A stretch of DNA of 64,000 bases from Streptomyces spiramyceticus. Lineage in GTDB: Bacteria > Actinomycetota > Actinomycetes > Streptomycetales > Streptomycetaceae. The notes below the pieces were generated by a model. That model saw nothing but the letters and a program-made list of their open reading frames with translations. It did no database searches and was not told the origin of the DNA. Numbering within the stretch: the first letter of the stretch is position 1; each line of letters begins with the position of its first letter. The stretch is taken from positions 3,707,501-3,771,500 of the forward strand of contig NZ_JARBAX010000001.1 of the NCBI RefSeq assembly GCF_028807635.1, read 5' to 3'. The position numbers and the translations under genes are program-made. Below, piece after piece: positions 58,649-64,000 of the stretch.

Positions 58649-59296
58649 GTGGGTGCGGTGAAGGGCAAGCGGATGCCGCGTGCCGTGCGCGAGCAGCAGA
58701 TGATGGACGCTGCCGTGCAGACCTTCGGGCAACGGGGTTACCGGGCCGCGTCGATGGACGAGATAGCCGAGCTGGCCGGGGTGTCCAAGCCGCTCGTCTA
58801 CCTCTACCTGAACTCCAAGGAAGAACTGTTCACGGCCTGCATCCGGCGCGAGGCACGCGCGCTCGTCGAGGCGGTACGGGCCGGGGTCGAGCCGGGCCTG
58901 CCCGCCGACCGCCAACTGTGGGACGGCCTAAGGGCGTTCTTCACGCACGCCGCCGAGAACCCGGACGCCTGGTCGGTGCTGCACAACCAGGCACGTACGC
59001 ACGGAGAGCCGTTCGCCGCCGAGGTCTCGGCGATGCGCGAGGAGATCGTCGCCTTCGTGACGTACCTGATCGGGTCCGCGGCCCGCGAGGCGGCCTGCGA
59101 TCCCGACCTCGCCGACCGGGAAGTGGCCGGCCTCGCCCATGCGTTGGTGGGCGCCGCGGAGTCGCTGGCCGGCTGGGGCAACGCTACGCCGGGCGTCTCC
59201 GCGAAGGAGACGGCCGCGACGCTGATGAACTTCGCCTGGGAGGGCCTTGAGAACCTCATGCGGGGGCAGCGCTGGGCGCCGTCGTCGCGCCCGTAA
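58649..59296 (+). CDS. TetR/AcrR-family transcriptional regulator
   Basis: A 215-aa regulator. The HTH is MMDAAVQTFGQRGYRAASMD, LAGVSKPLVYLYLNSKEELF; the C-terminal domain is helical and Trp/Ala-rich. The GTG at 58649 has aagga 9 nt upstream; an ATG at 58616 would add 11 residues without a ribosome binding site. It lies about 110 bp before the promoter of the peptide/P450 cluster on the same strand, so it is a candidate regulator of it, though homologues of this regulator also occur beside the symporter. Confidence 0.87.
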   Translation: MGAVKGKRMPRAVREQQMMDAAVQTFGQRGYRAASMDEIAELAGVSKPLVYLYLNSKEELFTACIRREARALVEAVRAGVEPGLPADRQLWDGLRAFFTHAAENPDAWSVLHNQARTHGEPFAAEVSAMREEIVAFVTYLIGSAAREAACDPDLADREVAGLAHALVGAAESLAGWGNATPGVSAKETAATLMNFAWEGLENLMRGQRWAPSSRP

Positions 59297-59409
59297 CGTC
59301 GTCGTGCCCGTAACGTCGTCGCGCTTGTAACCCGCCCGCGAATCGCACTGATCGAATATCACGGAATCGGTCATCGGCACAAGGGGGGATTCCTCTGCTC
59401 CTATCAGCG

Positions 59410-59439
59410 TTGACTTGATATCGGCAGGATTGCTTCTAT
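59410..59439 (+). promoter_or_regulatory. Promoter candidate for the pentapeptide/P450 cluster
   Basis: ttgact (59410-59415) and ttctat (59434-59439) are 18 nt apart, a plausible vegetative-type promoter. It would give a leader of about 35-40 nt before the ATG at 59483. The stretch from 59340 to 59480 is notably AT-richer than the flanking genes and has no other gene. Confidence 0.5.
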
Positions 59440-59482
59440 GGACGGGTCCTGAAAAGTTGCCTTCTGCCAAAAGGGGAACGTC

Positions 59483-59500
59483 ATGAAGTACTGCTGGTAG
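59483..59500 (+). CDS. Pentapeptide MKYCW, candidate RiPP precursor
   Basis: ATG AAG TAC TGC TGG TAG encodes five residues. aaggggaa at 59471-59478 is a good ribosome binding site, 4-8 nt before the ATG. The frame is closed upstream by a stop at 59450 with no other start codon, so the ORF cannot be longer. It is 87 nt upstream of a P450 gene. Biarylitide precursors (bytA, MRYYH) have the same length and position relative to a P450 that cross-links residues 3 and 5; here these are Tyr and Trp, with Cys between. Identity as a precursor is inferred. Confidence 0.72.
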   Translation: MKYCW

Positions 59501-59516
59501 CCGTTAGCGGCATCCT

Positions 59517-59541
59517 GGGGCCGGCTCGAAGAGCCGGCCCC
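59517..59541 (+). terminator. Hairpin between the pentapeptide and P450 genes
   Basis: An 11-bp perfect stem, ggggccggctc (59517-59527) with gagccggcccc (59531-59541), has loop gaa. It lies 16 nt after the pentapeptide stop and 46 nt before the P450 start. It could partially terminate transcription or stabilise the short mRNA, giving more precursor than enzyme. Confidence 0.7.
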
Positions 59542-59587
59542 CCTGCCGGTTCCTACGCGTTGAGAACGGCTTGAAAGAAGGCATGGC

Positions 59588-60760
59588 GTGCTGGAATATG
59601 ATCCGCTGTCGCCCGCGTTGATAGAAAATCCGTACCCCTTCTATGCAAGACTCCGCGAACGGCAGCCGGTTTTCTGGCACGAGAAGCTCGAATCGTGGGT
59701 GTTTACGCGGTACAAGGAATGCGCGGAGATCCTCCGCGACTCCGAGACATTCGCCAGCGACTGGCGACGGGCCGGCTACGAGATGCCGGAAATGGATCAC
59801 CCGAGCCTGCAGGTGCTTGATCCGCCCGACCATGCGCCGGTCCGCCATCTCTTCATGAGCGCGCTGCACCATCAGGACCTCGACGGCATCGGAGCGCTCG
59901 TCGCCGCGGAGTCTGCTGCCTTGTTCGAGAAACTCGCATCGGCCGCGTCTTTCGACTTCGTGGAAGAGGTCGCTCGTCCGGTGACCTTGCACGCTGTGTG
60001 CCGCGTCCTCGGGGTGAATGCTCCGGAGACGGATTCGTTCGTCAAGCTCGCCGATGCCGTTGAACGGGGTATGGACGCAGGCCTCGTCCCCGAGGCCCTC
60101 CAGCCGGCCATCGCGGCACGTCGGGAGATCGACAACCTGATGGAATCGTGGCTTGTCGATTCCTCGGGCTCCGGCGTACTTGGGCATGCATTACGTGAGA
60201 GAAAAGGCCTTGATGTGCCGGAAGGAGTTGTGTGGAGCACGGCCAGGGTGTTGTTCCTGGCCGGTTTCAGTACGACTGTTTCGGCCTCCGTCAATGCCGT
60301 GCTGGCTCTGCTGGGGCAGCCGGAATTGTTTGAGCGCATACGCAGTGACCGTCGGCTTCTCGACACCTGCATCGATGAGCTCATCAGGTACGACAGCCCG
60401 ATCCAGGGGACGAGCAGGGCGTGCGTCGAGGACGTCACCCTCGCAGGCGAACGGATAACGCGCGGCCAGTCGGTGATGGTCCTCATCGGGTCCGCCAACC
60501 GTGACCCCGACCAGTTCGCCGCACCGGACGAACTGGTGCCGGACCGTCGGCCCAACCAGCATCTCGCGTTCGGTCGCGGGCCCCATGCGTGTACCGGAAG
60601 CATGCTCGCAAAAGTGGTGCTACGAGCGCTGCTCACCAGCCTCCTGGAGCTTCCCGGAACGCCCCGTCCCGCCGGTCCGGTCCATCGCCGGCCCCGGGCA
60701 ACGCTGCGCTATCCGGAACGGCTTCCCCTCACGTTTCACTCACCAAGGACAGAGACATGA
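59588..60760 (+). CDS. Cytochrome P450, candidate pentapeptide cross-linking enzyme
   Basis: A 390-aa bacterial P450. The I-helix oxygen motif is LAGFSTT (A225-T230), ExxR is ELIR at E264-R267, and the heme loop is AFGRGPHACTGS with Cys335. The GTG at 59588 has aagaagg upstream. Codon 202 (60191-60193) is TTA, rare in Streptomyces and dependent on the bldA tRNA. The gene is less GC-rich than its neighbours. It directly follows the MKYCW ORF and overlaps the dioxygenase gene by 4 bp. As with BytO-type enzymes, an aryl cross-link in the peptide is the likely reaction; no electron-transfer partner is encoded nearby. Confidence 0.85.
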   Translation: MLEYDPLSPALIENPYPFYARLRERQPVFWHEKLESWVFTRYKECAEILRDSETFASDWRRAGYEMPEMDHPSLQVLDPPDHAPVRHLFMSALHHQDLDGIGALVAAESAALFEKLASAASFDFVEEVARPVTLHAVCRVLGVNAPETDSFVKLADAVERGMDAGLVPEALQPAIAARREIDNLMESWLVDSSGSGVLGHALRERKGLDVPEGVVWSTARVLFLAGFSTTVSASVNAVLALLGQPELFERIRSDRRLLDTCIDELIRYDSPIQGTSRACVEDVTLAGERITRGQSVMVLIGSANRDPDQFAAPDELVPDRRPNQHLAFGRGPHACTGSMLAKVVLRALLTSLLELPGTPRPAGPVHRRPRATLRYPERLPLTFHSPRTET

Positions 60761-61770
60761 GTGAACTCGAACCCTGGCCGCAGGCCCCCATCCTGGCCTC
60801 GCTCCCCGCAACGGCCCAGCTCACACCCCACTTTGATACGGCGGAGCTGCTGGCCGACCTCCAGACGCTGCGCACGACCGAATGGCTGCCGCCACAGATC
60901 ATCAGCGGCGAAGGACTCCGCCCCGGCGTCGATGTGGACTGGCGGAAGCTCCCGCTGCGCAGCGTGGGGGGAGACCCGGAGCGTACTGATCCGGGCGGTC
61001 CTTCACTGGCGGAGTTCGCCGACACCCCATGGCTCGGCAAGGCGCCGCACATGGCCCTGCTGCTGGCGGGCATACCCGCTCCGCTGCGCTGTGTCAGGCT
61101 TCAGTCGCTGGGGCCCGGAGCGGAGAGCCCCCTGCACAACGACACCAAGTACGGCCTGCCCTGGGGGATCGTACGGCTGCACGTTCCGCTGATCACGACG
61201 CCCGGCGCCACGCTCACCATCGAGCAGGAGACGTACCGATGGCAGCCCGGCGAGTTCTGGTACGCCGACTTCACCCGGCCTCACCTGGTGCGCAATGTCG
61301 ACGACATCACCCGCGTCCATCTCGTCATCGACTGCGAGCCCACGCCGGAACTGCTGGAGCTCTTCCCTCCCGAGTTCCGTACGCCCGAGGTGCTGGACCA
61401 CACGCTGCTGTCGCTGCCTGTCCGGCAGGTCACCCCGGCCGGTCTCGCGGCGTACCGCTGCACATTCCCCATGCCTGATTCGTTCACCGAGTTCGACGAG
61501 GCCGACGGAGCCTTTCTGACCTCCCCGCGCACCCGGACGGCCGCCGTCGAGGTGCGCGACGGGCAGCTGATTCTGTCTCTCTCCGGAAAGCCCGAGTTCA
61601 TGCTGGTGCACGTCGGTGCCGGGGAGTTCCGTTTCGCCGGATGGACGACGGAGCGGACGGTCCAGTTCACGAGGGATGCGTACAACAGGCCGAGTGTGAC
61701 GCTACGTTCGCGTGTGGGCGACCAGATCCGCGCCCTCACCCTGACGGCCGGCCTTCTGGAGTGCATCTGA
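60757..61770 (+). CDS. Aspartyl/asparaginyl beta-hydroxylase-type Fe(II)/2-oxoglutarate dioxygenase
   Basis: A 337-aa protein. The iron site is H127-x-D129 (LHNDTKYG) with H176 (FTRPHLVRNVDD) and R186-x-H188 (RVHLVID) in the cosubstrate position, the AspH pattern. IVRLHVPLITTPGATLTIEQ and QPGEFWYADF fill the double-stranded helix. About 75 C-terminal residues form an extra beta-rich part. The ATG overlaps the P450 stop (ATGA), so it belongs to the same pathway. It probably hydroxylates the peptide product or a side chain of it; the target is unknown. Confidence 0.82.
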   Translation: MSELEPWPQAPILASLPATAQLTPHFDTAELLADLQTLRTTEWLPPQIISGEGLRPGVDVDWRKLPLRSVGGDPERTDPGGPSLAEFADTPWLGKAPHMALLLAGIPAPLRCVRLQSLGPGAESPLHNDTKYGLPWGIVRLHVPLITTPGATLTIEQETYRWQPGEFWYADFTRPHLVRNVDDITRVHLVIDCEPTPELLELFPPEFRTPEVLDHTLLSLPVRQVTPAGLAAYRCTFPMPDSFTEFDEADGAFLTSPRTRTAAVEVRDGQLILSLSGKPEFMLVHVGAGEFRFAGWTTERTVQFTRDAYNRPSVTLRSRVGDQIRALTLTAGLLECI

Positions 61771-63020
61771 TGTCCACGCGACTCGCCGCACCACGAAGCC
61801 TCCTGCACCACCGGGACTTCATGCTGCTGTTCGGAGCCGAGTCGATCAGCGTGGCCGGTACGCAGGTCGGCATGGTGGCCCTGCCTCTCGTGGCGATTCT
61901 GACGATGCACGCGGGGGCGTTCGAAGTCGGTCTGCTGACGGCCGCGCAAACGTCCGCGTTCGTACTGATCGGCTTGCCTGCGGGCGTGTGGGTGGACCGG
62001 ATGCGCCGTCGTCCGGTCCTGATCACCGCCGATCTGGCGCGCGCGGCCCTGCTGTTCACCATTCCGGTCGCCTTCTGGCTCGACGCGCTCACGCTGACTC
62101 AGCTGTACGTCGTGGCGCTCGGAGCCAGTATCGGAACAGTGTTCTTCGAGGTGGCGAGCCAGAGCTATCTGCCCACTCTGGTCGACCGGGACCAACTCGT
62201 CGACGGCAACGGCAAGCTGGAAACGACACGGGCGGGTGCCCAGGTGGCGGGTCCCAGTGTCGGCGGCTGGCTGGTCGGTCTGGTCACCGCGCCGGTCGCG
62301 ATCGTCGCCGACGCGATCAGTTACGTGGGGTCCGCGATCTTCCTGAGCCGTATCGGTGCCCAGGAGACGAAGCGTTCGCGCGCGAACCGCCCCGGGCTGT
62401 TGCGGGAGATCCGTGACGGGCTCCAGTACGTGTTCGCCGACCGTATTCTCCGGCTGATCGCGCTCCGTTCGGCCGTTGCGAATCTGTCCTATTCGGCCCT
62501 CATCGCGGTGCAGGCCCTCTTCCTGGTCAGTGAGGTCGGCCTGTCGCCCAGCGGCTACGGGGCCTCGCTGGCCGCGGGCGCCGTCGGGGGGCTGTGCGGC
62601 GGTGCCCTCATCGGGCCGCTGGCCAAGCGGCTCGGTTCTGCCCGGATCATCTGGCTCGGACCTGTGCTGTTCCAGCCGTTCGCCCTGCTGATCCCGCTCA
62701 CCGACACGGGTGCGAAGGTCGGCTTCTTCATCGTCGGCTCGTTCTTCACCTCGATCGGTGTGGTCATCTACAACGTCAGCCAGATCAGCTTCCGTCAGGC
62801 CACCACCGCGGAAGACATGCAGGGCCGGATGAACGCCACCATGCGTTTCCTGGTCTGGGGGACGATGCCGGTCGGCGCCCTGCTCGGCGGCACACTCGGC
62901 GAAATGTACGGCGTGCGAGTCGCCCTGTGGTTCGGCGTTCTGGGGCTCGTGCTCTCGATCGTCCCACTGCTCTTCTCTCCTCTGGTCCGCATGCGTGACC
63001 TGCCCGCGAGCGCCTCATGA
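61770..63020 (+). CDS. MFS transporter, probable product exporter
   Basis: A 416-aa protein with 12 predicted helices. LLFGAESISVAGTQVGMVALP and GLPAGVWVDRMRRRPVLITADLARAA (loop 2-3 signature) place it in the enterobactin-exporter/EntS-like DHA3 group. The ATG at 61770 overlaps the dioxygenase stop (TGATG), so it is the fourth coupled gene of the cluster. Export or self-protection is inferred. The next gene starts 30 bp downstream. Confidence 0.88.
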   Translation: MSTRLAAPRSLLHHRDFMLLFGAESISVAGTQVGMVALPLVAILTMHAGAFEVGLLTAAQTSAFVLIGLPAGVWVDRMRRRPVLITADLARAALLFTIPVAFWLDALTLTQLYVVALGASIGTVFFEVASQSYLPTLVDRDQLVDGNGKLETTRAGAQVAGPSVGGWLVGLVTAPVAIVADAISYVGSAIFLSRIGAQETKRSRANRPGLLREIRDGLQYVFADRILRLIALRSAVANLSYSALIAVQALFLVSEVGLSPSGYGASLAAGAVGGLCGGALIGPLAKRLGSARIIWLGPVLFQPFALLIPLTDTGAKVGFFIVGSFFTSIGVVIYNVSQISFRQATTAEDMQGRMNATMRFLVWGTMPVGALLGGTLGEMYGVRVALWFGVLGLVLSIVPLLFSPLVRMRDLPASAS

Positions 63021-63050
63021 CGCATGTACGCAGACGCAGGGAGCCCTGAC

Positions 63051-64000
63051 GTGGCCGATGACCAGGAGCGCTGCCCCGACTTCCCCATGCCCCGGCGATG
63101 CCCCCACGCACCTCCTCCCGAGTACGAGGCCCTGCGGGCCGAAGCGCCCCTCGTCCGGGCCCGGTTCCGGCACGGCAGTACGGTCTGGCTGGTGACCCGG
63201 CATGCCGAGGCGCAGCAGGTGCTCACCCACCCGCGGATGAGTTCGGACCCCAACAGGCCGGGGCACCCGTTCGCGTCCGTCGCAGGCTCGCCGCGCGGTC
63301 AACTGCCCGGCGACTTCATCGACATGGACCCTCCGGAGCACAACCGGTACCGGCGCATGCTCGCCTCGGAGTTCGGTATGCGCCGGACGAGAGACATGCG
63401 CCCCGGCATCCGCTCTGTGGTCGACCAGGTTCTGGACACCATGGTGGACGGCGAAGAGGCCGACCTCGTCGAGTCGTTCGCCCTGCCCATCGCGACGCTG
63501 GTGATGTGCCAGCTGCTCGGCGTCCCGTACGACGACCGGGATTACTTCCAGGAACAGACCCGCAAGATGGCCAGGGGCTTCGTACACCCCGAAGAGGCCG
63601 AGACAGCGTTCAAGGAACTCCGGGGCTACGTAACGGAGTTGGCGTCCAGCGCGGAGCGAGCCCCGGGTGACAATCTCCTTGGCCGGCTTGTCAGGAACCA
63701 TCAGGAAGCCGGCGACCTGGCCCAGGAGGAACTGGCCGGCATCGCGTTCCTGCTGCTGGTCTCCGGCCATCAGACCACGGCCAACATGCTGCCGCTCGGC
63801 GCCTTCACCCTGCTGCGCAACTCCGGTCAGCTCGCCGCGCTGAGAGGCGATCCCACCCTGTGGCCGGGGGCGGTCGAGGAATTGCTGCGCTACCACTCGA
63901 TCGTCGACTGGGTGGCCCTCGCCCGGGTGGCGACCGACGACGTGGTCATCGGGGACCGGACCGTCCGGGCCGGCGAGGGTGTCTTCGTCCTCGGGGCCTC
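63051..64000 (+). CDS. Second cytochrome P450, 3' end outside the window
   Basis: The first 316 codons of a P450 from GTG 63051, with gggag 8-12 nt upstream. It has DMDPPEHNRYRRMLASEF (C-helix), the I-helix motif LLLVSGHQTTANM with Ser in place of the usual Ala, and ExxR in EELLRYHS. The heme loop lies beyond the window. It belongs to the CYP105/107-like group, less similar to the first P450 than to ordinary tailoring P450s. It is 30 bp after the exporter, so probably part of the cluster. Confidence 0.88.
   Translation, partial: MADDQERCPDFPMPRRCPHAPPPEYEALRAEAPLVRARFRHGSTVWLVTRHAEAQQVLTHPRMSSDPNRPGHPFASVAGSPRGQLPGDFIDMDPPEHNRYRRMLASEFGMRRTRDMRPGIRSVVDQVLDTMVDGEEADLVESFALPIATLVMCQLLGVPYDDRDYFQEQTRKMARGFVHPEEAETAFKELRGYVTELASSAERAPGDNLLGRLVRNHQEAGDLAQEELAGIAFLLLVSGHQTTANMLPLGAFTLLRNSGQLAALRGDPTLWPGAVEELLRYHSIVDWVALARVATDDVVIGDRTVRAGEGVFVLGA

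Follow-up and report, generated by a model that had tools for sequence, protein, structure and literature searches.

A five-codon MKYCW gene beside a cytochrome P450 in Streptomyces spiramyceticus and its predicted biarylitide-type pathway

The pentapeptide gene, the adjacent P450 and their relatives

The 64,000-nt stretch of Streptomyces spiramyceticus DNA analyzed here (the window; contig NZ_JARBAX010000001.1) contains an 18-bp open reading frame (ORF), ATGAAGTACTGCTGGTAG at 59483-59500 of the forward strand, which encodes only M-K-Y-C-W before its stop codon. A Shine-Dalgarno-like site precedes it (Table 1), and 87 nt separate its stop codon from the GTG start, at 59588, of an adjacent cytochrome P450 gene whose product is homologous to characterized biarylitide P450s. 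A preliminary description of this DNA had pointed out the ORF, its own ribosome binding site and the 87-nt spacing, and the window sequence confirms them. Since an in-frame TGA lies upstream at 59450 with no start codon in between, the frame can encode five residues only. A biarylitide precursor gene is about 18 bp long, and its pentapeptide is aromatic at positions 3 and 5; here these residues are Tyr3 and Trp5. Among the ATG-initiated five-codon ORFs on both strands of the whole window, MKYCW alone is aromatic at both positions. A looser rule (ATG, GTG or TTG, at most 9 codons; 20 kb around the locus) gave two ORFs, MKYCW and one TTG ORF without a clear ribosome-binding site. Within 59280-59620, no sigma-70-type promoter, no T-tailed terminator and no Rfam match were found.

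We inspected 48 P450 loci (the window's own included) with about 1.5 kb of flanking DNA on each side for mini-ORFs of 5-8 codons that start with ATG, have aromatic residues 3 and 5, and follow a Shine-Dalgarno-like word. The loci came from sampled whole-genome searches at genus, order, class and phylum level, which overlap; the set leaves out L124 (the second P450 of genome G206) and P450 matches without flanking DNA. All loci were oriented to the P450 strand and positions were re-registered by tblastn. A mini-ORF of 5 or 7 codons lies beside the P450 in 43 of the 48 loci: on the upstream side in 28, of which 26 have one within 200 nt, and on the downstream side in 15. None was found within about 1.5 kb on either side in the other five (L012, L033, L035, L036 and L039). 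Many of the 48 loci are closely related, so the 43 mini-ORFs are not 43 independent events. Their sequences are MRYAY, MSYDH, MFYDH, MRYDHCL, MRYIY, MRYIH, MRYVH, MRYFY, MRYYH, MSYRH, MRYLH, MKYWH, MRHAH and MKYCW, and purine-rich sites precede the relatives' pentapeptides as well. MKYCW itself was met at this locus only; Trp5 and Cys4 each occur in it alone. In control DNA (L002, 17 loci of distant P450s and 3 DUF6002 loci), the same rule returned MKYCW and no other match in 797,922 strand-bases.

The pairing of precursor and P450 that marks the biarylitide family is thus conserved in relatives of the locus, and the locus looks like what the preliminary description proposed, a biarylitide-type pentapeptide with its cross-linking P450. 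The check named there, whether M-x-Y-x-W is kept upstream of P450 homologues, did not refute the proposal and held in part: a mini-ORF with aromatic residues 3 and 5 recurs, M-x-Y-x-W is not kept, and the nearest relatives have MRYAY. A scan of genome contigs with two peptide patterns, which was not exhaustive, gave at least 22 loci, 5 of them close (51-55% identity) and 17 at 24-29% (used as control only). All five close loci, in S. sioyaensis, Lentzea sp. NBRC 105346, Streptomyces sp. 1-11, Streptomyces sp. LaPpAH-108 and S. bungoensis, have MRYAY 92-129 nt upstream of the P450.

In a tree of 51 rows (L042 absent), the seven MRYAY sequences together form the sister group of the MKYCW P450 (support 98/97). 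Its fold matches pentapeptide-bound enzymes in the PDB. Leu224 occupies the position tied to C-C versus C-N bonding, and among the sequences compared Leu in this column is limited to MKYCW and the seven MRYAY rows. According to PMC12951456, the His near substrate His5 is His226 in BytO and His234 in P450Blt, whereas SlyP has Leu224 and the YYH and YFH enzymes have Val there and make C-C bonds. Leu224 therefore places the enzyme with the SlyP-like C-C subgroup, which has Leu or Val, and predicts the bond type. SlyP, whose native substrate is MRYAY, forms a Tyr3-Tyr5 C-C bond and, in the account of PMC13417212 section 11, no Tyr-His bond. Models of MxYxW complexes permit both C-C and indole-nitrogen bonds (PMC13417212 section 13).

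With a third-position GC of 0.74, the P450 gene lies below the called upstream genes (0.86-0.96), a difference consistent with horizontal acquisition of the operon. Several related loci are of separate note. MKYWH lies 30-72 nt downstream of the matched P450 stretch in 12 loci (L019, L021, L023, L024, L025, L027, L028, L029, L041, L043, L045 and L121). MRHAH, with His at both cross-linking positions, lies downstream of the P450 in L030 and L032, and the seven-residue MRYDHCL, with Cys in its tail, upstream in L020 and L026. On a Bacillus arachidis plasmid (L116), an IS6 transposase gene has downstream of it one for a biarylitide-like P450 (39.5% identical), and ATP-grasp genes lie close by; no pentapeptide ORF was found in about 1 kb scanned upstream of it.

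Between the MKYCW stop codon and the P450 lies a GC-rich hairpin at 59517-59541, with no T-run after it. In 22 of 26 pentapeptide loci the stem is longer than in dinucleotide shuffles (p<=0.05; p 0.02 at the MKYCW locus), with L004, L007, L009 and L034 falling short. None of 21 control regions, each taken from in front of a related P450 that lacks a pentapeptide close upstream, exceeded the shuffles. The 26 loci are 28 minus L048 and L049 (repeats of L005 and L006); L042, L119, L120, L122 and L123 stand outside the test. L042 was removed from the controls (22 to 21) because it has an upstream pentapeptide, and about half of the 21 are one close group with a downstream pentapeptide, not independent of each other. 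Stem sequences differ between groups. Because close relatives are not independent, the result describes a pattern, not a count of events. Literature searches on such a hairpin yielded only a figure legend of the myxarylin paper, where the bytAO region of that cluster is shown as a predicted structure next to a terminator hairpin. The hairpin probably sets the precursor-to-enzyme ratio, yielding more precursor than enzyme. Biarylitide precursors escape gene callers, and this hairpin could mark further clusters in searches.

The ten-gene run and its homologues elsewhere

MKYCW heads ten same-strand genes. After the P450 come genes for an Asp/Asn hydroxylase, an MFS protein, a second P450, DUF6002, GNAT (Acetyltransf_6), another MFS protein, an LLM flavin enzyme and an AsnB-like protein. 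From the P450 on, the gaps are at most 58 nt (in order -4, -1, 3, 58, -4, 0, -4 and -1 nt); the shared strand and these overlaps or short gaps suggest one transcript. The preliminary description had seen a minimal cluster, which the ten-gene run contradicts, and we rejected a two-gene cluster as the whole story.

Table 1. Features of the MKYCW locus; positions are those of the window
Feature	Position	Strand	Remarks
Shine-Dalgarno-like site AAAAGGGG	59469..59476	+	6 nt ahead of the pentapeptide ATG
bytA-like precursor gene, MKYCW	59483..59500	+	sequence; comparable mini-ORFs in relatives
GC-rich hairpin GGGGCCGGCTC-GAA-GAGCCGGCCCC, 11 pairs	59517..59541	+	between precursor stop and P450
Biarylitide-type cytochrome P450 (bytO-like), 390 aa	59588..60760	+	haem Cys335, E264xxR267, Leu224
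Asp/Asn beta-hydroxylase-like enzyme (PF05118), 337 aa	60757..61770	+	HxD at 127-129
MFS exporter	61770..63020	+	
Second cytochrome P450, ~26% identical to the first	63024..64000, on to 64256 in the genome	+	
DUF6002	64315-65667	+	beyond the window, window-equivalent coordinates
GNAT	65664-66815	+	beyond the window, window-equivalent coordinates
Second MFS	66816-68072	+	beyond the window, window-equivalent coordinates
LLM flavin enzyme	68069-68980	+	beyond the window, window-equivalent coordinates
AsnB-like	68980-70806	+	beyond the window, window-equivalent coordinates

Homologues of the hydroxylase (45-47%) occur in three of the five named MRYAY loci (L047, L048 and L050), in L047 directly after the second P450, and at 41% in both MxYDH plasmid clusters examined (L117 and L118). 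A second biarylitide-like P450 is encoded in each of the five named MRYAY loci, and L046, L048 and L050 also encode an S9 peptidase. A Pfam scan covering the nine larger operon genes and the neighboring TetR, DUF6817 and LuxR genes, and not the rest of the genome, revealed no nitric-oxide synthase. No nonribosomal peptide synthetase (NRPS) was found among the genes scanned at the locus.

DUF6002 matches occur in 20 genomes (this one included), three others of which we examined, all Streptomyces. L114 groups homologues of DUF6002, GNAT, LLM and AsnB; L115 has the set DUF6002-LLM-GNAT, and L113 the pair DUF6002-GNAT. None of the three has a Shine-Dalgarno-led pentapeptide or a biarylitide P450, so the link of these four genes to MKYCW is not proven. 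NRPS genes adjoin the DUF6002 loci in L113 and L114. L114 also has an aspartate decarboxylase, aminotransferases and a methylaspartate mutase gene. A PDB sequence search with the DUF6002 protein gave no match, and the family is not named in the literature searched.

The AsnB-like protein best matches 7ylz, a 'hydroxyamidotransferase' that we take to be TsnB9, among PDB sequences (536.6 bits, against 155.4 for asparagine synthetase B), and such scores do not reveal the donor. In the trichostatin-type hydroxamate module TsnB6/7/9, TsnB9 is a hydroxyamidotransferase and TsnB7 an AurF-like amido-oxygenase. No AurF-like amido-oxygenase is encoded in the operon; the genome's two AurF-family (PF11583) matches lie about 0.82 Mb away. 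At C1:4597390-4599345 (L125 and L126) the same genome divergently encodes an AurF-family protein and a weaker AurF-like one. AsnB-like enzymes have also been proposed to form plain amides (PMC5719088).

Predicted pathway and rival explanations

We consider it highly probable, judging from the sequence, that MKYCW and the neighboring P450 constitute a biarylitide-type pathway for a ribosomally synthesized and post-translationally modified peptide (RiPP), with a predicted Tyr3-Trp5 cross-link and later tailoring. The ribosome would make MKYCW, seen here as an ORF, as a five-residue precursor. The adjacent P450 would bind it, take off two hydrogens and join the side chains of Tyr3 and Trp5. The bond is most likely C-C, since the P450 shares the Leu of SlyP; the main alternative is a bond through the indole nitrogen. 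A peptidase would strip Met-Lys to leave a cross-linked Tyr-Cys-Trp, with a predicted [M+H]+ of 469.1540 if otherwise unmodified. The Asp/Asn-hydroxylase-like enzyme probably hydroxylates the cyclized core, and the MFS protein would export the product. The second P450, DUF6002, GNAT, LLM and AsnB-like proteins might conceivably make later changes to the tripeptide, such as forming an amide or adding an N-acyl group.

Several points weigh against this interpretation. SlyP handles Trp5 poorly, with a turnover of 7% for a Trp5 peptide, whereas AciB reaches 100%, with two products (PMC13417212 section 11), which puts a Tyr3-Trp5 bond within reach of the enzyme type. None of the other 42 mini-ORFs has Trp5, and the match of substrate to enzyme therefore rests on a single locus. 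The branch of its P450 is long (0.59), identity to relatives is at most 55%, and the tree program flags long rows as unsurely placed. The hydroxylase has no match genome-wide in four of the seven other MRYAY-P450 genomes, including S. sioyaensis, and is thus a frequent, not constant, companion of biarylitide-type P450s; no effect of SavH was visible on the YVH product (PMC13417212 section 12). The operon lacks the tandem biarylitide-like P450 and the S9 peptidase seen in MRYAY loci. Among the operon proteins scanned against Pfam there was no peptidase family, and a leader peptidase was not found.

Two adjoining pathways, a reading compatible with a biarylitide from MKYCW, are a possibility to be taken seriously, if below an even chance: the biarylitide genes would reach only as far as the first MFS gene, and those for the second P450, DUF6002, GNAT, LLM and AsnB-like proteins would make an unrelated product. 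The grouping of the last four in L113-L115 without a pentapeptide or biarylitide P450 speaks for such a boundary, as does the 58-nt gap ahead of DUF6002, the largest from the P450 on; the unbroken strand and the overlaps or 0-58 nt gaps from the P450 through the AsnB-like gene speak against it. A hybrid product seems unlikely, in which a Tyr-Trp- or sulfur-bridged Tyr-Cys-Trp would keep a thiol within its ring, be hydroxylated and have its carboxylate converted to an amide or hydroxamate by DUF6002, GNAT, LLM and AsnB-like proteins, giving a metal-binding peptide. To our knowledge, no such metal-binding amide or hydroxamate peptide is known among biarylitides. We retain a trichostatin-like hydroxamate, weakly, solely within this hybrid, as the operon has no AurF-like partner.

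Cys4 sits between two reactive side chains and is found in no other mini-ORF, and the P450 might act on MKYCW by bonding its sulfur (a Tyr-Cys or Trp-Cys thioether) in place of or in addition to the Tyr3-Trp5 link. We give this little credence, since characterized cross-linking relatives join residues 3 and 5 and nothing in the present analysis favors a thioether at Cys4; both AciB and SlyP accept a range of residues at position 4, among which the account in PMC13417212 does not mention Cys. Just as improbable is a rufomycin-like building-block pathway, in which the pentapeptide would be a scaffold with one modified residue, released as an amino acid that the operon's second half would then use. 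The closest solved structures include RufO's; DUF6002 and GNAT genes adjoin NRPS genes in two other genomes; and the operon has many extra genes. Against these stand the lack of a nitric-oxide synthase and an NRPS among the genes scanned and the grouping of the P450 with MRYAY enzymes by Leu224 and the tree, where rows with RufO's SVRAFFHAGFEVPS stretch (L011, L012, L038 and L039) fall elsewhere. The missing synthase, the tree position and Leu224 likewise weaken RufO-type nitration as such. That the mini-ORF is a chance or regulatory upstream ORF and the P450 acts on a small molecule has hardly any probability left. Its length of only 18 bp and the five loci without a mini-ORF would suit such an origin, but the same pattern recurs in 43 of 48 loci with no other match in control sequence, and the P450 fold matches pentapeptide-bound enzymes; with its uniqueness in the window, we rejected a chance ORF.

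Relation to known biarylitide systems

A survey of July 2026 (PMC13417212) lists 277 biarylitide clusters by machine learning and describes biarylitide precursors as the smallest known genes. Its section 8 gives nine motifs that carry Trp at one of the cross-linked positions, among them MKYLW and MKYIW of Actinomadura, and section 13 names Trp-motif systems as future targets. The preliminary description knew of no described family with this core; M-x-Y-x-W is in fact already described there. MKYCW was not found in the literature searched or in the main text of PMC13417212; its supplementary tables were not covered, and the locus may be among the 277 clusters. The biarylitide family and, on paper, the MxYxW type are thus already known, while three features seem new: a core of Tyr-Cys-Trp, the occurrence of Trp5 next to the MRYAY (SlyP-like) clade, and a setting of ten genes.

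The enzyme presumably has a native Tyr-Trp substrate and is sister to a clade whose characterized member makes Tyr-Tyr and handles Trp5 poorly, so exchanging a few residues between the two enzymes could reveal how partner and bond type are determined. Through Cys4, a biarylitide would gain a reactive group open to later chemistry, and the length of the operon suggests that cores of this family can be coupled to other pathways.

The closest comparison is with the SlyP/MRYAY clusters (Streptomyces lydicamycinicus, PMC13417212 section 11); the P450s of MRYAY loci form the sister clade, SlyP's own sequence not being part of the comparison. In both types the P450 has Leu224 and is preceded, at a distance of about 100 nt, by a five-codon precursor gene whose residue 3 is Tyr and residue 5 aromatic; three of the five named MRYAY loci also have an Asp/Asn hydroxylase homologue. 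They differ in the core (YCW against YAY), in Lys2 against Arg2, in the absence here of a tandem second biarylitide-like P450 and in the extra unrelated P450, DUF6002, GNAT, LLM and AsnB-like genes of the MKYCW locus. SlyP forms Tyr-Tyr and takes Trp5 poorly, unlike the prediction for MKYCW. The Actinomadura MKYLW and MKYIW loci (BiarylitideFinder, PMC13417212 section 8) share an M-K-Y-x-W precursor beside a biarylitide-type P450; they are known from genome mining and have Leu or Ile at position 4. P450Blt (Micromonospora sp. MW-13; 8u2m; 39% identical) shares the fold and a pentapeptide substrate, whereas it has His at the Leu224 position and makes Tyr-x-His with a C-N bond. It has been reported to link Tyr-x-Trp too (PMC10929621). 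RufO of rufomycin (9duj and 9eby; 42% identical) shares the fold and binds a pentapeptide (MRYLH), but nitrates Tyr, feeding nonribosomal peptide synthesis (PMC13417212 sections 5 and 8). Finally, the MRYVH cluster of Saccharothrix variisporea (savA, B, T and H; PMC13417212 section 12) has a pentapeptide, a P450 and an Asp/Asn beta-hydroxylase (savH), as here, and differs in its amidinotransferase and Tyr-His core.
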